From IMG/VR virus record IMGVR_UViG_3300044620_000180, positions 1-37,270 of that record: a DNA stretch of 37,270 bases; one strand, given 5' to 3'. This document shows positions 347 through 37,202 of the stretch, in pieces. Numbering within the stretch: position 1 is the first letter of the stretch; every line of letters starts with the position of its first letter. The translations under genes and the position numbers were made by a program. The stretch comes from a virus. The notes under the pieces were generated by a model, which saw nothing but the letters and a program-made list of their open reading frames with translations, was not told the DNA's origin and did no database searches.

Positions 347-439
347 ACATTATTTTACATGCCGAGTGAATAACCTTGCAAAGTGTAAGGGTTATAGCGG
401 TTTCAGGGGTTTAAAACGCGTTTTGTGGGTTGTGGGATG

Positions 440-543
440 ACCCACGGAAAAGCATTGATACGCCTCGGTTTTGGGGTTTTGTGGGTTTTTTGTGGGTCAT
501 GGCGCAACCCACGGAAAAGCGTTGATACGCCTCGGTTTTGGGG
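440..543. repeat. 37-bp tandem-like direct repeat (two copies)
   Basis: The unit starting ACCCACGGAAAAGC and ending CTCGGTTTTGGGG occurs at 440-476 and 507-543, differing by one A/G. The 30-bp spacer is G/T-rich and contains two TGTGGGT motifs. A 72-codon open frame crosses it but is an artefact of the repeat. Confidence 0.9.
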
Positions 544-588
544 CATTTTATAGGGTTGTGGGTCATTCTTTTTTCAAGTTATCGGAAA

Positions 589-606
589 TTACACATAAAT
601 GTGAAA
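589..606. promoter_or_regulatory. Palindromic site in AT-rich segment
   Basis: TTACACAT and ATGTGAAA flank a 2-bp centre; the arms match at 7 of 8 positions. The size and symmetry suit binding of a dimeric regulator. It lies in the AT-rich part of control region 1, about 70 bp upstream of the rightward promoter. Function is inferred from symmetry and position only. Confidence 0.45.
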
Positions 607-674
607 TAATGGCCGCGCTGAGATTTAACACTTGGAGCGGCGCCGACTTAAAATGCATGACCCACATTGCCCAC

Positions 675-703
675 ATGACCCACATCTAAGAAATTTATAT
701 AAT
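675..703 (+). promoter_or_regulatory. Rightward promoter with operator-like -35
   Basis: A perfect TATAAT (698-703) follows ATGACC (675-680, 4/6 to TTGACA) with a 17-nt spacer. The -35 lies inside an ATGACCCACA repeat (675-684), so a protein binding that repeat would occlude the promoter. The predicted start, 7 nt after the -10, is position 710, the A of the next ATG. Confidence 0.7.
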
Positions 704-709
704 GATCCT

Positions 710-919
710 ATGCCAAAACCGCCTACATTGACGCCCAAAAGATTCGACAGAAAATTGACGCAAGAGCAACTAAATATTTTAGCGGCCGCGGGCGCCGGAA
801 ATATTACTGAGGGAATTAATGTAGTGCTAAATTGCTATCAATTGCTTTACAATTCCGGCGTCAAAGATGATGACAAGTTAGCAATATTGCTTTCGAATAT
901 ACGTAAATTAGGGACATAA
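710..919 (+). CDS. Small ribbon-helix-helix-like protein, possibly leaderless
   Basis: The product is 69 residues starting MPKPPTLTPKRF. A basic strand-like segment (KRFDRKLT), a helix, and then a GNITEG turn leading into a second helix resemble the ribbon-helix-helix fold of Arc/MetJ-type repressors, but I cannot confirm the fold. Longer in-frame starts at 632 or 653 exist, yet they run through the ATGACCCACA repeats and promoter. The ATG at 710 has no clear ribosome site and coincides with the predicted transcription start, which suggests a leaderless mRNA. Being the first gene behind an operator-like array, it could be an autoregulator of the late block. An alternative is an unrelated small helical protein. 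Confidence 0.65.
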   Translation: MPKPPTLTPKRFDRKLTQEQLNILAAAGAGNITEGINVVLNCYQLLYNSGVKDDDKLAILLSNIRKLGT

Positions 920-5906: not shown

Positions 5907-8157
5907 AAGCCTAAAAACATACCTGATCCTTCAGGACATGACGGATGACCAGCAAGAAACCATCCTGTCGTCGGTTCGTGCAGCAAACGAGAAGGCTAAA
6001 CAGCTCAAAAAAGAGCGCATAAGCCAGAACGTCGGGCTGGTTGTCGATGCGTTGAAGAAGATCGAGGCGGATATCCGCGCCAGATACGACGATCTGGGCA
6101 ATAAGATCGAGACACGCGTTAATTCCATCCAAGATGGCCGCGATGGTAGCGACGGCCGCGACGGTAAAGACGGCAAAGATGGTCGCCCAGGCCGCGATGG
6201 GGTGACAGGCCCAATGGGGCCGGCCGGTCGAGACGGTATCAATGGCGTTGATGGTGAAGATGGTGTGTCGGTCATCGATGCGAAGATTGATTTCGACGGA
6301 TCGTTGGTCATCACGCTCTCCAATGGCCGTGAGATCAACGTCGGCGAGGTGGTCGCACCGGATTTGGCCGAGCGCATTAAGGTCATCACCAACGGTGGCG
6401 GCACGTCGCAGGCAGTGCTTGATGCATTGGCCTCGCTCCAGACGCAGATCAACAATCTGATCCCCAGCCAGACCGGCAACGCAGGCAAGTTTCTGACCAC
6501 CAACGGCTCGGCGTTGTCGTGGGCGGATGTCGCTGGCGGTTTGGATTACCAAGGTACTTGGAACGCATCGACAAACACGCCTTCTTTGGCTTCTGGTGTA
6601 GGCACGAACGGTTACTACTATGTGGTGTCGGTCGATGGCTCGACCAACCTGGACGGCATTACCGACTGGAAGGCGGGCGATTGGCTGCTGTTTAACGGCA
6701 CGGTGTGGCAAAAGATCGACCAGAGCTGGGCGATTGCTGGGGCCAACGACAACATCACGTCGATGACGGGGATCACCGGTGGTATTTCGTCACCGGACTT
6801 CATTCAGTTTGATACGGGCGCGACAGTCACAAACGCAGCCGGTCGACTGTACTGGGATAGCACACAGCAGACTTTGACGGTCGGCTTGAACGCCAATATT
6901 GCGGCGGATGTTGGCCAGACCTTGTACGCCTACGCGACGAACGACGAAGCGGTGACGATCAACAAGGGTCAGCCGGTCTATATGTTCGCTGCGCAAGGTG
7001 ATCGGGTGTCGGTGAAGCTCGCGTACAACACGGGCGATGCGACATCGGCCAAGACGCTGGGCGTTTGCGCGGAGAACATTGCAGCCGGTCAGGCCGGCAT
7101 GATTTTGTGCCAAGGTGTGCAGGATGGGTTGGATCTTAGTGCTTATACCGCAGGCGACACGCTGTACCTGGGCGCCACCGCCGGCACACTGACGAATGTG
7201 AAGCCGTATGCACCGAACCATTTGGTCTATATCGGTGTGGTTGAGCGCGCAAACATGGGTAACGGTCGTCTGTACGTGCGCGTGCAGAATGGCTATGAGC
7301 TAGAAGAGCTGCACAACGTCTCGGCACAAAGCCCATCAAATGGTCAGTTGTTGATCTATAACGCCAGCACTGGGTTGTGGACGAAAAACACACTGACAGA
7401 TGGTGATGGCATCACGATCACTGAAGGTGCTGGGTCGATTACGGTCACGAATGCGGGTGTGCGTACAGCGCAAGCAGGCACAGGCATTTCTGTTAGCGGC
7501 ACCAACGACATCACGATCACGAATACGGGTGTTACCAGTCTGACGGGCACAACTAACGAGATTGACGTGTCGGCCAGCACGGGCAGTGTGACCTTGAGCT
7601 TGCCAGCAACGATCAATGCGGACACTACGGGTAATGCAGCGAACGTCACCGGCACCGTTGCGATTGCTAATGGTGGTACGGGTCAGACCAGTCAAACCGC
7701 AGCGTTTGATGCATTAGCACCGACGACTACGAAGGGTGATCTGATCGTATCGAATGGATCAGACAATATCCGTCTGGCCGTTGGCACGAACGGCTACTTG
7801 TTGACCGCCGATTCGGCAGAAGCTTCTGGCATCAAGTGGGCAGCAGCGCCGGTTAGCACGACGGTGGCCAACGATACGAGTACGAATGCATCGTACTACC
7901 CGACGTTTGCAACAGCAACCAGCGGCACGTTCTCAACTGCTACGGTATCCAGCACTAAGCTGACGTACAACCCGTCGCTTGGCCAACTATCAGCGAGTGT
8001 ACCGAGGGCAGATAACGGTATCTTTGTTAATAAGGCAACAATAGCGACGAGCTATACGATTGCGTCGGGTGATAACGGGATGTCTGCTGGAACGATTACG
8101 GTAGCGGACGGTGTAACGGTGACGGTTTCTGACGGCTCGTTCTGGACTGTGGTGTAA
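5896..8157 (+). CDS. Tail fibre with collagen-like repeat
   Basis: The product is 753 residues, a virion fibre. Residues 1-75 are a charged helical, probably coiled-coil region. About 80-123 are Gly-X-Y triplets (DGRDGSDGRDGKDGKDGRPG and on), a collagen-like trimerising rod. Next come domains typical of phage fibres (GYYYVVSVDGSTNLDGITDW, then SAQSPSNGQLLIYNASTG) and a beta-rich Thr/Gly C-terminus including ANGGTGQTSQTAAFDAL. The start is decided by AAGGAG at 5883-5888: GTG at 5896 is 7 nt away, whereas the TTG at 5890 is too close. It overlaps the portal gene by 11 nt. Its place before the scaffold is unusual. Confidence 0.88.
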   Translation: MDVESLKTYLILQDMTDDQQETILSSVRAANEKAKQLKKERISQNVGLVVDALKKIEADIRARYDDLGNKIETRVNSIQDGRDGSDGRDGKDGKDGRPGRDGVTGPMGPAGRDGINGVDGEDGVSVIDAKIDFDGSLVITLSNGREINVGEVVAPDLAERIKVITNGGGTSQAVLDALASLQTQINNLIPSQTGNAGKFLTTNGSALSWADVAGGLDYQGTWNASTNTPSLASGVGTNGYYYVVSVDGSTNLDGITDWKAGDWLLFNGTVWQKIDQSWAIAGANDNITSMTGITGGISSPDFIQFDTGATVTNAAGRLYWDSTQQTLTVGLNANIAADVGQTLYAYATNDEAVTINKGQPVYMFAAQGDRVSVKLAYNTGDATSAKTLGVCAENIAAGQAGMILCQGVQDGLDLSAYTAGDTLYLGATAGTLTNVKPYAPNHLVYIGVVERANMGNGRLYVRVQNGYELEELHNVSAQSPSNGQLLIYNASTGLWTKNTLTDGDGITITEGAGSITVTNAGVRTAQAGTGISVSGTNDITITNTGVTSLTGTTNEIDVSASTGSVTLSLPATINADTTGNAANVTGTVAIANGGTGQTSQTAAFDALAPTTTKGDLIVSNGSDNIRLAVGTNGYLLTADSAEASGIKWAAAPVSTTVANDTSTNASYYPTFATATSGTFSTATVSSTKLTYNPSLGQLSASVPRADNGIFVNKATIATSYTIASGDNGMSAGTITVADGVTVTVSDGSFWTVV

Positions 8158-28868: not shown

Positions 28869-29990
28869 GTGAACCATTCCAACATCGTCGGCGGCAGCAC
28901 CGCCAAGCGCGTTATCAACTGCCCAGCGTCGGTGAAGCTGGTGCAACAGATGCCGCCGCGTCCGTCTTCTGAACACGCCGACCGTGGTACGCTCCTGCAC
29001 AATGTGATTGCTGAATTACTGGAGTTCGACAAGCCGCCCGCGCAGTGTCTGGGCGCCAAGTACAACGATCAGGTTCTCACGCAGGAGTTGCTCGATGAGA
29101 AAATTATTCCCGCTCTCGCGGCCCTCGATGTCATTGATCCGGGCAAGCGAATGGAGTACATGGTGGAGACGCGTGTGGGCTTTGGTGATTTTCTCCCTGG
29201 TGTCTTTGGCAGCACTGACTTACTTGGGCGTCAGGACTCACGCGCCATCGTTCTTGATTGGAAATTTGGCGATGGTGTACTTGTGGATGCTGTGGAAAAC
29301 GATCAGCTCATGTTTTACGCTGCCGCCGCCATGCGAACCGAAGCGTCGAAGTGGGTTTTCGAGGACGCCGATGAGATTGAACTCATCATCGTACAGCCAC
29401 CAGAAATCCGGCGCTGGACTACTACTAAGGCACGGATTCTTTCTTTTGAACAAGAACTCGCAAAAGCGGTAAAGCGTGCGCAGCAAGACGGCGCGCCGAT
29501 GCAGACGGGCGAGCATTGCCGCTGGTGCGCAGCGAAACCGATCTGCCCACAGATGAACGGCGCAGTCGACCGCGCAGTGCATCAGCAGATCGTCAATCTC
29601 GATAAAGAACAGCTCGCAGCCTACCTCGAGAAGGCCGATGTGTTGGAGGATTGGATTAAAGACCTTCGGGCGCTGGCGTTTCAAGTGTTAGAATCAGGCG
29701 CAGAAGTCCCAGGCTACAAGTTGGTTCCAAAACGCGGTACGCGGCAGTGGGCAAGTGAAGGCGCTGTCGAAGCGTGGGCGGATGTGAACGGAATCACCGA
29801 CGCGTATGAGACGAAATTAAAGTCGCCTGCGCAGATGGAAAAAGTGCTGAAGAAGCACGGCAAAGAATTACCCAGCGATCTCGTCATCACGGTATCGTCA
29901 GGTAGTACGTTGGCACCGGAGTCTGATCCGAGGCCAGCGGTGTTACAAATCGGGAAGCAGTTGACTGCGGCCCTTTCTAAACTCCAATAA
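28869..29990 (+). CDS. Cas4-like PD-(D/E)XK nuclease (DUF2800 type)
   Basis: The product has 373 residues from GTG at 28869, with GGAGG 4 nt upstream. A frame from TTG 28812 runs through the promoter and is rejected. NIVGGSTAKRVINCPASV is the typical start. GTLLHNVIAELLE, GVFGSTDLLGRQDSRAIVLD and WKFGDGVLVDAVENDQLMFY carry the metal-binding acids and the Lys of the nuclease. HCRWCAAKPICPQ is the C-terminal Cys cluster as in Cas4/AddB-like proteins. It probably acts as an exonuclease in phage recombination or replication. It starts the replication operon. Confidence 0.87.
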   Translation: MNHSNIVGGSTAKRVINCPASVKLVQQMPPRPSSEHADRGTLLHNVIAELLEFDKPPAQCLGAKYNDQVLTQELLDEKIIPALAALDVIDPGKRMEYMVETRVGFGDFLPGVFGSTDLLGRQDSRAIVLDWKFGDGVLVDAVENDQLMFYAAAAMRTEASKWVFEDADEIELIIVQPPEIRRWTTTKARILSFEQELAKAVKRAQQDGAPMQTGEHCRWCAAKPICPQMNGAVDRAVHQQIVNLDKEQLAAYLEKADVLEDWIKDLRALAFQVLESGAEVPGYKLVPKRGTRQWASEGAVEAWADVNGITDAYETKLKSPAQMEKVLKKHGKELPSDLVITVSSGSTLAPESDPRPAVLQIGKQLTAALSKLQ

Positions 29991-32786: not shown

Positions 32787-35090
32787 TTGGAGTTCTTAGA
32801 GTATCTCACAAAACTCGCGCCTGAAGGCGAAACCCTATTAATCGTTCGGCAAAAGCCGAAACTCAAAGACGGACAGGTCGAACTGCACGCCGACGGGGCG
32901 GTTAAAGCCGTCTGGCCTGCGTTCTATCCTGATCACCGGCGCCGTGACGGCGAGGCGTGGTACGGCAACACCGCGTCGTTTATCGTCGACCGGTTCACGG
33001 ACGGCAAACCCAGCGCCAGTGCCGCGAATTGCGAGTACGTCTTGGTGATGGTGCTGGATGACGTGGGCGACCCGGCTAAAGCGCCTGAGACGCCGCCGTT
33101 AGCGCCGACCTGGATCATGGAGACGTCGCCGGGATCGTTTCAGTGGGGCTACGCGTTCTCAGAACAGCCGACCAAAGCCGACTACGCAGCGGCCATTAAA
33201 GCAATCGCAGCGGCCGGCTACAGCGACCCCGGCGCCTGCAACCCGGTGCGCAACTTTCGACTACCGGGCTCGGTTAACCTGAAACCCGGCCGCGACCGCT
33301 TCGTTGCGCAGCTCGTCGAGTTTCACCCCGAGCGCGAATACACGTTAGATGAAATATGCACGGCATTGAACGTCACGCCGGTGCCGGTCGAGTCGATCGG
33401 CGTTAACCCGATCAAACTGGCGGACGATGGCGGCGACGACGTCTTCGGCTGGCTGGGCGAGCATGGTCTGGTGCTGACCAAACCTAACCGCGAAGGCTGG
33501 GCCGGCGTCGTCTGCCCGAACAAAGACCAGCACACCGACGGCAATCCGGAAGGGCGCTACAACCCGTCCTCGAGGGCGTACTGCTGCCTGCATTCGCACT
33601 GCATCGACTTAAGTTCAACTGACTTTCTCGCCTGGGTGGCGGCGAACGGTGGGCCGAAACGCGAGCCCGGCCTGCGCGAGGAACTGATCGTCGGCACGAT
33701 GAACATGGCGCTGGCTAAACTCGAACCGACGGACGAGTTCCCGGACGTTGCGGCCGACGTGATTGAAGACGTCGAGCGCCGGCAGTCGGCCCGCGTCGAG
33801 CGCGAGGGCTGGTATACGCGGTATGCCTACGTTATCGAGGATGAGGCGTACTTCGACTTACTTAACCGACGGGAAAAGACGCGCAGCGCGTTCAATGCGG
33901 TTTACCGGCATATCAATTGCACGTCGATTCACAATGGCCGCAAAATTGAAGCGTCCGTTTGCTTCGACGAGAACCGAGACGCGAAGGGCGCGATGGCCTT
34001 GACCGGCATCACCTACGCGGCCGGCGACGGCGTGGTGGTGCGCCGTGATGGCGTCGAGTACGGCAACCGCTGGCGCGACGCGCGGCCGGTACCGGTGCCC
34101 GGCGACGCGTCTCCGTGGCTCGAGCATGTCGAGCGCATGGTCCCGAACTCGGACGAGCGCGAGCATTTGCTGAACGTCCTTGCCTACAAAATTCAAAACC
34201 CGAGCGTGAAAATCAACCACGCGGTTTTGGTCGGCGGTTTACCCGGCAGCGGCAAGGACACGATGATGGCGCCGTTTTTCTGGGCCATCGGCGGCGACAC
34301 TAAGCAAAACTGCAGCCTGGTGCGCAACGAAGAACTGACGTCGCAGTGGGGTTATGCGCTCGAGTGTGAAGTGATGGAAATCGCCGAGCTGCGCCAGAGT
34401 GAAGCGCGTGACCGGCGTGCGCTTGAGAATAGTCTAAAACCGATCATTGCAGCGCCGCCGGACTTTTTACAGATTAACCGCAAGGGTCTGCACCCTTACA
34501 TGGCCCCGAACCGCGTCCTGGTGGTGGCATTCTCAAACGAGCGGGCGGCGATTTCAATTCCAACTAACGATCGGCGGTGGTTTTGCCTATGGTCGGACGC
34601 CGGCCGGCTGCCAGAGGCTGACGCGCGGCGCTTGTGGACTTGGTATAAACACAAAGGCGGTTTCGCGGCCGTTGCGTCTTATCTGCACGGCCGTGACGTG
34701 TCAATGTTTAACCCAGGCGCAGCGCCGCCGATGACCGAAGCCAAGGCGATTATGATTGATCACGGCCGGTCAACGGCCGAGTCTTACCTAGTTGAACTCA
34801 TTACCGGCCGCGTGGGTGAATTCGCGGCCGGCGTCGTTGCGTCCCCGTTTTTCTCACTTTGTGACCGGCTAGCAGGGTCTGCGCCGGCCGGCGTCAAAAT
34901 ACCGCCTGTTGCGCTTCTGCACGCGTTAACCGAAGCGGGATGGGTAGACTTGGGGCGCGTACATTCGCGGGACTTCCACACCAAAAAACAGCTGTTCTGC
35001 GCGCCAGACATGGCCGACATGTCGCGTACTGAGCTCAGGCGCTTGGCCGAACAACCGCCGACACCGGCCGCCGTTCGCTTGGTGAAATAA
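32787..35090 (+). CDS. Primase-helicase (AEP-like primase plus D5/DUF5906-type helicase)
   Basis: The product has 767 residues from TTG, with GGGAG 6 nt upstream. The N-terminal third (NTASFIVDRFTDGKPSASAA, YVLVMVLDDVGD, NPVRNFRLPGSVNLKPG) resembles RepB/archaeo-eukaryotic-type primases. A Cys/His cluster (VCPNKDQHTDG to CCLHSHCID, about 242-275) may bind zinc. The helicase has Walker A GGLPGSGKD (483-491), and WGYALECEVMEIAELRQSE carries the Walker B-type acids. NRVLVVAFSNERAAI and NDRRWFCLWSD follow, as in phage DUF5906/D5 proteins. It would prime and unwind DNA. It is the last gene of block B. Confidence 0.88.
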   Translation: MEFLEYLTKLAPEGETLLIVRQKPKLKDGQVELHADGAVKAVWPAFYPDHRRRDGEAWYGNTASFIVDRFTDGKPSASAANCEYVLVMVLDDVGDPAKAPETPPLAPTWIMETSPGSFQWGYAFSEQPTKADYAAAIKAIAAAGYSDPGACNPVRNFRLPGSVNLKPGRDRFVAQLVEFHPEREYTLDEICTALNVTPVPVESIGVNPIKLADDGGDDVFGWLGEHGLVLTKPNREGWAGVVCPNKDQHTDGNPEGRYNPSSRAYCCLHSHCIDLSSTDFLAWVAANGGPKREPGLREELIVGTMNMALAKLEPTDEFPDVAADVIEDVERRQSARVEREGWYTRYAYVIEDEAYFDLLNRREKTRSAFNAVYRHINCTSIHNGRKIEASVCFDENRDAKGAMALTGITYAAGDGVVVRRDGVEYGNRWRDARPVPVPGDASPWLEHVERMVPNSDEREHLLNVLAYKIQNPSVKINHAVLVGGLPGSGKDTMMAPFFWAIGGDTKQNCSLVRNEELTSQWGYALECEVMEIAELRQSEARDRRALENSLKPIIAAPPDFLQINRKGLHPYMAPNRVLVVAFSNERAAISIPTNDRRWFCLWSDAGRLPEADARRLWTWYKHKGGFAAVASYLHGRDVSMFNPGAAPPMTEAKAIMIDHGRSTAESYLVELITGRVGEFAAGVVASPFFSLCDRLAGSAPAGVKIPPVALLHALTEAGWVDLGRVHSRDFHTKKQLFCAPDMADMSRTELRRLAEQPPTPAAVRLVK

Positions 35091-35506: not shown

Positions 35507-35696
35507 TGTCGGACCCTTTCATGATTTGATGCGTGTCAATTACCGCTTTAATCAGCGTAAAAACATTGTCGGAATTACCGTTGGCCAATACACCGGCGGC
35601 CATAATCAACGCGGCGGCGGTATCTGATTCGCTTAGGTTTAACGTATGCTCGGCATAGTCGAGTAAAGCCTGAACCGCTTCGGGTCTGTTATTCAT
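35499..35696 (-). CDS. Small helical protein, unknown
   Basis: The product has 65 residues. MNNRPEAVQALLDYAEHTLN is followed by SDTAAALIMAAGVLANGNSD and a last helix. GAGG about 9 nt before ATG 35696 decides this start over 35732. The start lies inside the end of the upstream gene. No family recognised; helical hairpin proteins of this kind often bind other proteins. Confidence 0.75.
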   Translation of the reverse strand: MNNRPEAVQALLDYAEHTLNLSESDTAAALIMAAGVLANGNSDNVFTLIKAVIDTHQIMKGSDNE

Positions 35697-35979
35697 CGGT
35701 AAATACCTCGCATAATGGAATTGAAGGGTCATATTGAGCGGTGGCGTATTGATTCAGGTTGACGTAATCGCCGGGAATTAGCATATTCAACCGCTCAAAT
35801 TCGCGGACATAATCGCGCGTTGACATGGGCGTGCCCGCTGGATGTCGGACATGCGGAAACTTTCGAATGTTTTTCGGCTTGGCCGGCTTGTACGGTTTGC
35901 GGGCCGCTTTGGCAAGCTCGATCGGATCCCGATCAAATTTCACTTTATAGGTTGTTCCGTCGATGACTATAGTTTGCAT
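35689..35979 (-). CDS. Small basic-N-terminal protein, unknown
   Basis: The product has 96 residues starting MQTIVIDGTTYKVKFDRDPI. A Lys/Pro-rich linker follows (AARKPYKPAKPKNIRKFPHV), then a helical part (STRDYVREFERLNMLIPGDY). AAAGGG precedes the ATG. It lies 13 nt after the small helix-turn-helix gene and overlaps the next one by 8 nt. The basic linker suggests nucleic-acid or acidic-protein contact. No function is known. Confidence 0.78.
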   Translation of the reverse strand: MQTIVIDGTTYKVKFDRDPIELAKAARKPYKPAKPKNIRKFPHVRHPAGTPMSTRDYVREFERLNMLIPGDYVNLNQYATAQYDPSIPLCEVFTDE

Positions 35980-36406: not shown

Positions 36407-37090
36407 TTAGGCCGCCTTTTGCATGAAAAATACTTTTTCCGCTTTTTTGGCGCCGGATCCGTGGGCCAAGAATCCGACGATCGTCGGCCGGTCGGCCCGT
36501 GCGCACAATTGGCAATCTGCGCAGCTAATATCATCGCGCAGCTGCGCGGGACAGGTGACGACCAGGCGGCCGGCCGGCGTGCGGTTTTTAGCGCCGGCGT
36601 CAATCGGTAGGATTGTGACGACGGGACCGGCGCCGGTGTCGGCGAGCGCGTCGGCGTGCGTCAAATCATTGGCCGATAGGTTGATAGTAAAGCCGGCCGC
36701 GTTGGCCGCTTTAATCTGCGCCAGATTGTCGGCCGTCGCCGGCTTGTGAGTGTAAGTAAAGCCACGGCGGCCGGCATTGGCCGCCACTAACATATCGAGC
36801 GCGGCCGGATTAATCGAATTGTCTAAGCCTGGTAAATCGCCGGCTTGATTGTGGCGCCACAATTGGCCGGCCGGTAATTGCGCGATTGCGTCGCAGAAGC
36901 TTTGCCAATCTAGGCCGCGCTCGCCGGCCGTGACAGCGCGCCAATGCAGCGCAAGCGGACCGCCGTCGGCGTAACAGCCACCGCTTTTGAGCGGGCACGC
37001 GCTCGGGCACGATAGGGCCGACGTCGTCGAAACAGGTATCGGGCCGGTTTTTACGTTAGCTGATTTCAGCGTTAAATGTACGGTTTTCAT
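36407..37090 (-). CDS. Cys-rich phage protein (DUF7227/Gp88-like)
   Basis: The product has 227 residues. N-terminal LSCPSACPLKSGGCYADGGP and C-terminal CPAQLRDDISCADCQLCARA place at least seven Cys in two clusters, then RPTIVGFLAHGSGAKKA. The middle (residues about 70-150) looks like an alpha/beta barrel segment (GRRGFTYTHKPAT, AGFTINLSANDL). The pattern matches, from memory, a widespread phage family of unknown function related to mycobacteriophage Gp88. A metal or Fe-S cluster is plausible. It is the largest gene of block C. GGCC sites are very dense here. Confidence 0.8.
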   Translation of the reverse strand: MKTVHLTLKSANVKTGPIPVSTTSALSCPSACPLKSGGCYADGGPLALHWRAVTAGERGLDWQSFCDAIAQLPAGQLWRHNQAGDLPGLDNSINPAALDMLVAANAGRRGFTYTHKPATADNLAQIKAANAAGFTINLSANDLTHADALADTGAGPVVTILPIDAGAKNRTPAGRLVVTCPAQLRDDISCADCQLCARADRPTIVGFLAHGSGAKKAEKVFFMQKAA

Positions 37091-37115: not shown

Positions 37116-37202
37116 TTAGAATGACATCAAAACGAAAAGAAACGCCCATAGGTACAGAAAAGCGATAAGGCCTAATAACATTTCGAAAATAGTTTGTTTC
37201 AT
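37116..37202 (-). CDS. 28-residue hydrophobic membrane microprotein
   Basis: The sequence begins MKQTIFEMLLGLIAFLYLWA and ends FLFVLMSF: almost a single membrane helix. AAGGGG lies about 9 nt before the ATG, and the start is 2 nt after the upstream gene's stop. The same start occurs at position 80 of the left copy but runs off the window there. Too short for routine gene calling. It may insert in the host inner membrane; the function is unknown. Confidence 0.65.
   Translation of the reverse strand: MKQTIFEMLLGLIAFLYLWAFLFVLMSF

Follow-up and report, generated by a model that had tools for sequence, protein, structure and literature searches.

The origins of PICI always consist of an AT-rich region with a set of iterons on either side, located 3' of the initiator gene, and this layout has been described as common to no other known bacterial replicon (PMC6092414). 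The initiator, the SaPI/PICI Rep, is a self-loading helicase that recognizes the iterons by its C-terminal domain, and in SaPI5 Rep a primase is fused to it (PMC6092414, PMC7581432). Similarly, the P4 alpha protein contains in one chain a primase, a helicase, and, for binding to the origin repeats, a winged-helix domain, while pRN1 ORF904 combines a primase-polymerase and a helicase with a C-terminal winged helix (PMC4234260). P4 also has a second repeat cluster, known as crr. In PLE, the DNA-binding domain of the initiator RepA and the origin change as a module, and an origin-directed nuclease, Odn of ICP1, appears to drive this co-change (PMC8263062).

Here, we analyzed a 37,270-nt stretch of DNA, hereafter referred to as the window, that corresponds to positions 1 to 37,270 of the IMG/VR virus record IMGVR_UViG_3300044620_000180. 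It contains a repeat array that we interpret as an iteron replication origin bound by the phage's own primase-helicase, a reading we regard as very likely (probability of about 0.87) in the absence of binding or replication data. As in SaPI/PICI, there are two iteron sets around an AT-rich region, and the putative initiator is an SF3/D5-type helicase; unlike the satellites, where the origin is directly 3' of rep, the array belongs to a tailed phage and lies about 2.4 kb downstream of the gene, with opposing genes in between, and the counterpart of iteron binding by the Rep C-terminus is indirect, supported by covariation only. The P4 alpha protein differs in its TOPRIM primase, whereas the N-terminus found here matches RepB_primase weakly, and only one repeat cluster is seen in the phage, in contrast to P4. 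For ORF904, the proposed origin is a stem-loop without iterons (PMC4234260), and the PLE RepA is an unrelated RepA_N initiator, with iterons of about 30 bp and domain swaps rather than a residue-level code (PMC8263062). By both sequence and fold, the helicase part was closest to the NrS-1 phage primase (PDB 6k9c, 6k9e), with an identity of about 15%.

The repeat array at the gene switch

The initial annotation, made from the sequence alone, had described direct and inverted copies of one 10-mer, a 37-bp repeat pair, and an AT-rich stretch, all located where leftward genes give way to rightward ones, and each of these elements held. When the whole window was searched, four exact copies of TGTGGGTCAT were detected, at 491 (+), 557 (+), 657 (−), and 675 (−), all within 491-684, and a copy with one mismatch was found at 437 (−). 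Upon allowing one mismatch or none, there were eight matches in the window against 1.57 expected, a number not reached in any of 100 shuffles (0/100), and five of the eight fell at 437-684. The exact copies were in the array only and not evenly scattered, and no second cluster of the word was found elsewhere in the genome in this whole-window search. The core [TC]GTGGG gave 10 sites at 424-684, including TGTGGGCAAT at 666 (−). This clustering is a direct observation, as is the arrangement of the sites in two sets. The left iteron set, at 421-566, contains exact sites at 491-500 (+) and 557-566 (+), the one-mismatch site at 437-446 (−), and core-only sites at 424 (+), 431 (+), 480 (+), and 504 (−). 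A 67-bp tandem duplication occupies positions 406-539, with copies at 406-472 and 473-539 that are 79% alike, and the 37-bp repeat pair, 440-476 and 507-543, differs in one base and is inside this duplicated region. The right iteron set, at 657-684 (−), has three sites with a 9-bp period, TGTGGGTCAT (657-666), TGTGGGCAAT (666-675), and TGTGGGTCAT (675-684), all of them reverse. Between both sets, the spacer at 567-656 is AT-rich, with 74% AT at 567-612 and 61% at 567-655, as compared with 45% for the 37,122-bp circle, and it is inferred to be a candidate melting region. An imperfect palindrome, TTACACATAAATGTGAAA, was read by eye at 589-606, within the spacer. Moreover, a repeat is present at 322-337 (ATATCACACTTGGAGC) and 623-638 (ATTTAACACTTGGAGC), one copy being within a leftward promoter-like site, and it is possible that this is a site for a second regulator.

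On its left, the array is bordered by a leftward ORF (83-271), and on its right by the rightward ORF 710-919 (+), which encodes p69, a 69-aa protein of unknown family. A promoter-like site at 675-703 (+), composed of ATGACC at 675-680, a 17-nt spacer, and TATAAT at 698-703, has its first hexamer within the last iteron. The claim that an inverted copy of the 10-mer forms the −35 box of a rightward promoter held, therefore, only as a consensus match, and positions 1-1300 contained six promoter-like sites against 2.6 expected. Farther to the right, a G-run (G7-8, A or T, G4-5) was observed at about 1146-1157, approximately 470 nt from the array and upstream of terS; it was also seen in L090, L023, L117, L013, L121, and other relatives, often followed by GCGGGT(A/G)CC, and 48 of 88 loci had it on the right of the array at a distance of up to 1.2 kb, with 0.013 expected per 1.2 kb. 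It could be a packaging or end site.

The record is taken as circular because an end repeat starts at 37122, whose first 100 nt are identical, with three differences toward the far end (read by eye). This 37-kb circular record carries genes for TerL, PolA, the primase-helicase, a helicase, and an exonuclease, and is not a phage satellite. The initial annotation had proposed that a GC skew minimum at the array would support an origin. The minimum of the cumulative, mean-corrected skew was located at 36547, which on the circle is a distance of about 1.1 kb from the array, and the amplitude was 298, compared to a mean of 212 after block shuffling, with 4.5% of 1000 shuffles reaching 298; the skew backs an origin at the array only weakly. 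No DnaA box (TTWTCCACA) was found beside the array, and the single copy in the record is at 29291-29299.

The primase-helicase and the arrays of its relatives

The proposed initiator is encoded at 32787-35090 (+), and contains a RepB_primase-like N-terminus and a DUF5906/SF3-type helicase. The array's first site is about 2.5 kb past the stop codon of this gene in the window, and 1.2-4.1 kb past it in relatives; in the window, leftward ORFs stand between them. Pfam analysis of 25 family members found DUF5906 in all (25/25) and RepB_primase in 20, the window protein being below the curated cut-off for the latter, and no TOPRIM family was among the hits of these members with E values up to 0.1. 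The full-length model (pLDDT 76.5, pTM 0.44) retrieved SF3 primase-helicases with Foldseek, NrS-1 being the best and SaPI5 Rep (7ola) and D5/E5 also listed. The C-terminal domain, residues 651-755 (34737-35051, +), was modeled with AF2 with a pLDDT of 85 and a pTM of 0.73, and showed a winged-helix topology. In this model, strands are predicted at residues 720-727 and 730-738, placing residues 726-731 (HSRDFH; 34962-34979, +) at the tip of a hairpin, the wing, which is the proposed reader of the iteron bases. A helix at residues 707-716, in the usual place of a recognition helix, is strongly conserved. Fold matches of this domain with VIA-align were many winged-helix domains, with a modest best Z of 6.0, and the P4 origin-binding domain was absent from the listed matches; a sequence search of the domain against solved structures gave chance-level matches only.

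In viral contigs, 85 stretches had paired TGTGGGTCAT words no more than 30 bp apart, and arrays of the same kind lie downstream of the primase-helicase gene in relatives of the window's protein. Layout and neighbors were counted in 93 labeled distinct loci, 87 of which extend 1.5 kb or more beyond the array on the right. The array could be split around an AT-rich gap in 81 of the 93, and could not in 12. In the split arrays, the left-set sites were forward in 224 of 278 cases and the right-set sites reverse in 274 of 303; the gap had a median length of 107 bp and an AT content of 0.61, against 0.49 locally, and was above the background in 79/81, although the spacer was picked as the most AT-rich gap, and this biases the AT result upward. 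On the right, a p69-like protein was found beside the array in 31/87 loci and not in 56/87, and tblastn matches to the window's terS and terL were each found in 31/87. Since each of these genes is present at only 31/87, the array persists beside varied right-hand genes, and the same words recur at arrays without terS or terL matches. In a distant case, GenBank MW202483.1, the primase-helicase is 49.5% identical to that of the window and has the wing CFAPELS, and a dense array of TGTTTACATAAAC-like words is found about 3.9-4.2 kb past its gene, just before rightward genes, as would be expected if the arrangement were retained and the word had changed completely.

Other observations were made in these searches. 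A homing endonuclease is annotated at 10712-11158 of L388, directly adjoining the candidate origin of MW202483.1. Paired TGTGGGTCAT words were also present in L034, L065, L102, and L111, which have isolate-style IMG identifiers; no relative of the window's primase was found within the fetched stretches of these four. In the distant relatives L145, L155, L171, and L173, several AGTTAGTGAGTACTCACTAACT-type palindromes are located between the array and the rightward genes, and may represent a second repeated operator. A near-identity search with window positions 1-25000 gave no match in a collection of 50,697 phage records.

Joint change of the sites and the wing

Among close relatives, the layout is kept and the copies of the word change together, to TGCGGGCAAT, TGAGGGCAAT, or TGCACGTCAT. 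Loci L005, L006, and L008 have TGCGGGCAAT, each with two or three copies of TGAGGGCAAT, while L013-L015 have TGAGGGCAAT, L016 has TGCACGTCAT, and L017 a mixture. In locus L010, the primase C-terminus is of the window type, and the array is truncated, retaining a single exact TGTGGGTCAT copy and a near one; at 7161-7230, a deletion or misassembly spans from the first sites into its p69 gene. The TGTGGGTCAT and TGCGGGCAAT groups (A and B) were compared for 16 window genes, of which 11 were testable, as exo, nt, L35499, p62, and ORF3281 did not have enough data in both groups to be scored. The primase-helicase showed 11 segregating residues, all in 726-754, and a small leftward ORF (35689-35979) showed three segregating columns, while none were found in PolA, portal, TerS, TerL, p69, the DUF7227 protein, or three small leftward ORFs. 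The segregating nucleotides of the primase gene were confined to codons 705-754, indicating that the last stretch of the gene and the distant array changed together. This lockstep change is shown by the comparison.

The analysis was extended to 158 loci, 131 of which were labeled and, after reduction for redundancy and length, yielded 93 distinct near-full-length pairs. A score floor of 3.2 was used; unclear, truncated, or array-less loci were left out by hand, and the labels of L014, L016/L121, L018, L189, L192, L194, and L196 were set by hand. On a tree built from primase residues 1-690, motif changes were assigned to 41 of 184 branches. The tree-aware test of the 93 pairs and 450 columns ranked residues 726 (p 6e-6) and 731 (p 3e-4) as the top two, and the block 721-736 had the highest mean score. 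For site position 2, all six changes coincided with changes at residue 728 (6/6, p 2e-11), and R728 was found with G at this base in 85/85 cases and a residue other than R with a base other than G in 8/8. In addition, T727 accompanied a base other than T at site position 3 in 11/13, D/E731 was present with TGTGGA sites in 20/24 against 1/69 of the rest, N726-T727 went with TGCACG in three proteins whose backgrounds are only 64-69% identical, and M726 went with TGTTAG in two proteins 67% identical. Residues 726, 727, and 731 do not follow the sites perfectly, L131, L148, and L185 being misfits, and L155 has an NT wing and a mixed array. The top column for site position 6 was outside the wing (752, p 1.3e-3).

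Three further scans provided new data, 184 loci with 110 distinct, previously unseen primases. Here, the wing residues were extracted before the sites were called, and the site caller was blind to the wing. No call was made in 32/110, where the array was absent, short, or weak, and, among the 78 callable arrays, 73 agreed with the position-2 rule (46 R728/G2 and 27 non-R/non-G) and five were contrary. Within the agreeing loci, the call for L374 was spurious and GC-rich, and the register of L225 and L302 was uncertain. One contrary locus, L259, was a register artefact, TGTGGACAAT having been read on the other strand, and was corrected by hand for the tree described below; the clade of L294, L301, L305, and L307, with R728, MSRDL wings, and (A)TGTAGTCAT, breaks the rule unless this word is taken as a 9-bp site. 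The new loci are not phylogenetically independent, and many of the non-R cases come from one clade. In these loci, D/E731 was again associated with TGTGGA (29/33 vs. 0/45 in the others). On a tree of 170 loci, 13 of the 15 R/non-R changes at residue 728, six reversions to R included among the changes, shared the branch with a change of base 2. In this tree, L025, L028, and L186 were read by eye and added by hand, and loci with partial primases were excluded, the contrary L305 and L307 among them. The covariation of the sites with the wing is, like the lockstep change, shown.

A control with PolA covered 64 of the 93 loci, and in this subset the primase signal was weaker: column 455 ranked first, above 726, for the whole label, and residue 728 was still first for position 2 but with only three of five changes coinciding. 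No PolA column went below p 2.4e-3 for the whole label or 3.9e-3 for position 2 in these 64 loci. Parsimony tie-breaking possibly contributed to the weaker signal, as an inference.

Rival readings, proposed mechanism, and meaning

The initial annotation had left open an iteron origin or a multi-site operator. In the operator reading, p69 or another regulator would bind the repeats and control two divergent promoters, and this is favored by the location of the array between divergent genes and by the overlap of the last site with the promoter-like −35. However, p69 had no segregating columns between the motif groups, the p69 of L005 is 100% identical over residues 1-66 although the motif of this locus is TGCGGGCAAT, most of the 87 arrays with sufficient right-hand sequence lack a p69-like protein there, and the site sequence tracks the primase wing. 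On the basis of the segregation, the L005 identity, and the 56/87 absences, p69 was rejected as the determinant of the site sequence, and a p69 operator as the conserved role of the array, and the operator is very unlikely. A packaging site, cosB- or pac-like and bound by the small terminase subunit, is suggested by the window group, in which the terS/terL pair lies downstream of the array, but TerS and TerL had no segregating columns, window terS or terL matches are found at just 31/87 arrays, the words recur beside other genes, and the separate conserved G-run, closer to terS, is a better packaging candidate. TerS packaging as the conserved role of the array was rejected on the lack of segregating columns and the 31/87 matches, and this reading is all but excluded.

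The remaining alternative is that the primase-helicase binds the array as an autoregulator or at a copy-number control or incompatibility site, with synthesis starting elsewhere. All of the covariation is compatible with the primase-helicase binding the array in any role, the right set overlaps the promoter-like site, and the skew has a weak minimum at a distance of 1.1 kb. Against it, PICI origins have the same layout, with two convergent sets around an AT-rich spacer (PMC6092414), the genome has no other cluster of the word, and the primase gene is not downstream of the array's promoters. We consider this reading very unlikely too, but rank it above the operator. An origin with the primase-helicase as the binder is favored because the site sequence covaries with the wing of this protein and not with p69.

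In the favored origin reading, binding, loading, melting, and priming are inferred by analogy with SaPI Rep and P4 alpha. The primase-helicase would bind the 10-bp iterons via the wing of its C-terminal winged helix, with R728 at the wing tip reading the G of site position 2 and with an influence of residues 726, 727, and 731 on positions 3 to 6. The two iteron sets facing across the AT-rich spacer would allow two helicase assemblies to load as facing hexamers, and these would melt the spacer before DNA synthesis is primed. The word and the wing have changed together many times, which would give distinct origin-specificity groups among close relatives. Binding at the right set might also alter rightward transcription, a side effect inferred as plausible because this set overlaps the −35 of the p69 promoter-like site.

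By analogy, the array would work like the SaPI/PICI and P4 origins. What appears to be new, as far as the open-licence literature searched shows, is its setting in a tailed phage, about 2.4 kb away from the gene of the initiator, together with the wing-to-base code. In a bolder reading, toward which we lean only slightly, the wing tip serves as a module for recognition that evolves fast, its residues corresponding to site bases by a simple code (R728 with G2, 726-727 with bases 3-4, and D/E731 with TGTGGA sites), and the motif classes are replicon-compatibility groups. If true, origin specificity would be predictable from the protein sequence, and competition among phages that infect the same cell, or nucleases that target origins, would have shaped the compatibility groups; an origin-directed nuclease as the driver of the word diversity observed here is speculation, by analogy with PLE (PMC8263062). 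The base-level recognition of origin repeats by self-loading primase-helicases is poorly known, and a large natural collection of wings matched to their iterons, in which reversions occur and solutions recur, points to individual contacts. It also offers a sequence handle by which the origins of uncultured phages can be located and these phages grouped by origin specificity.
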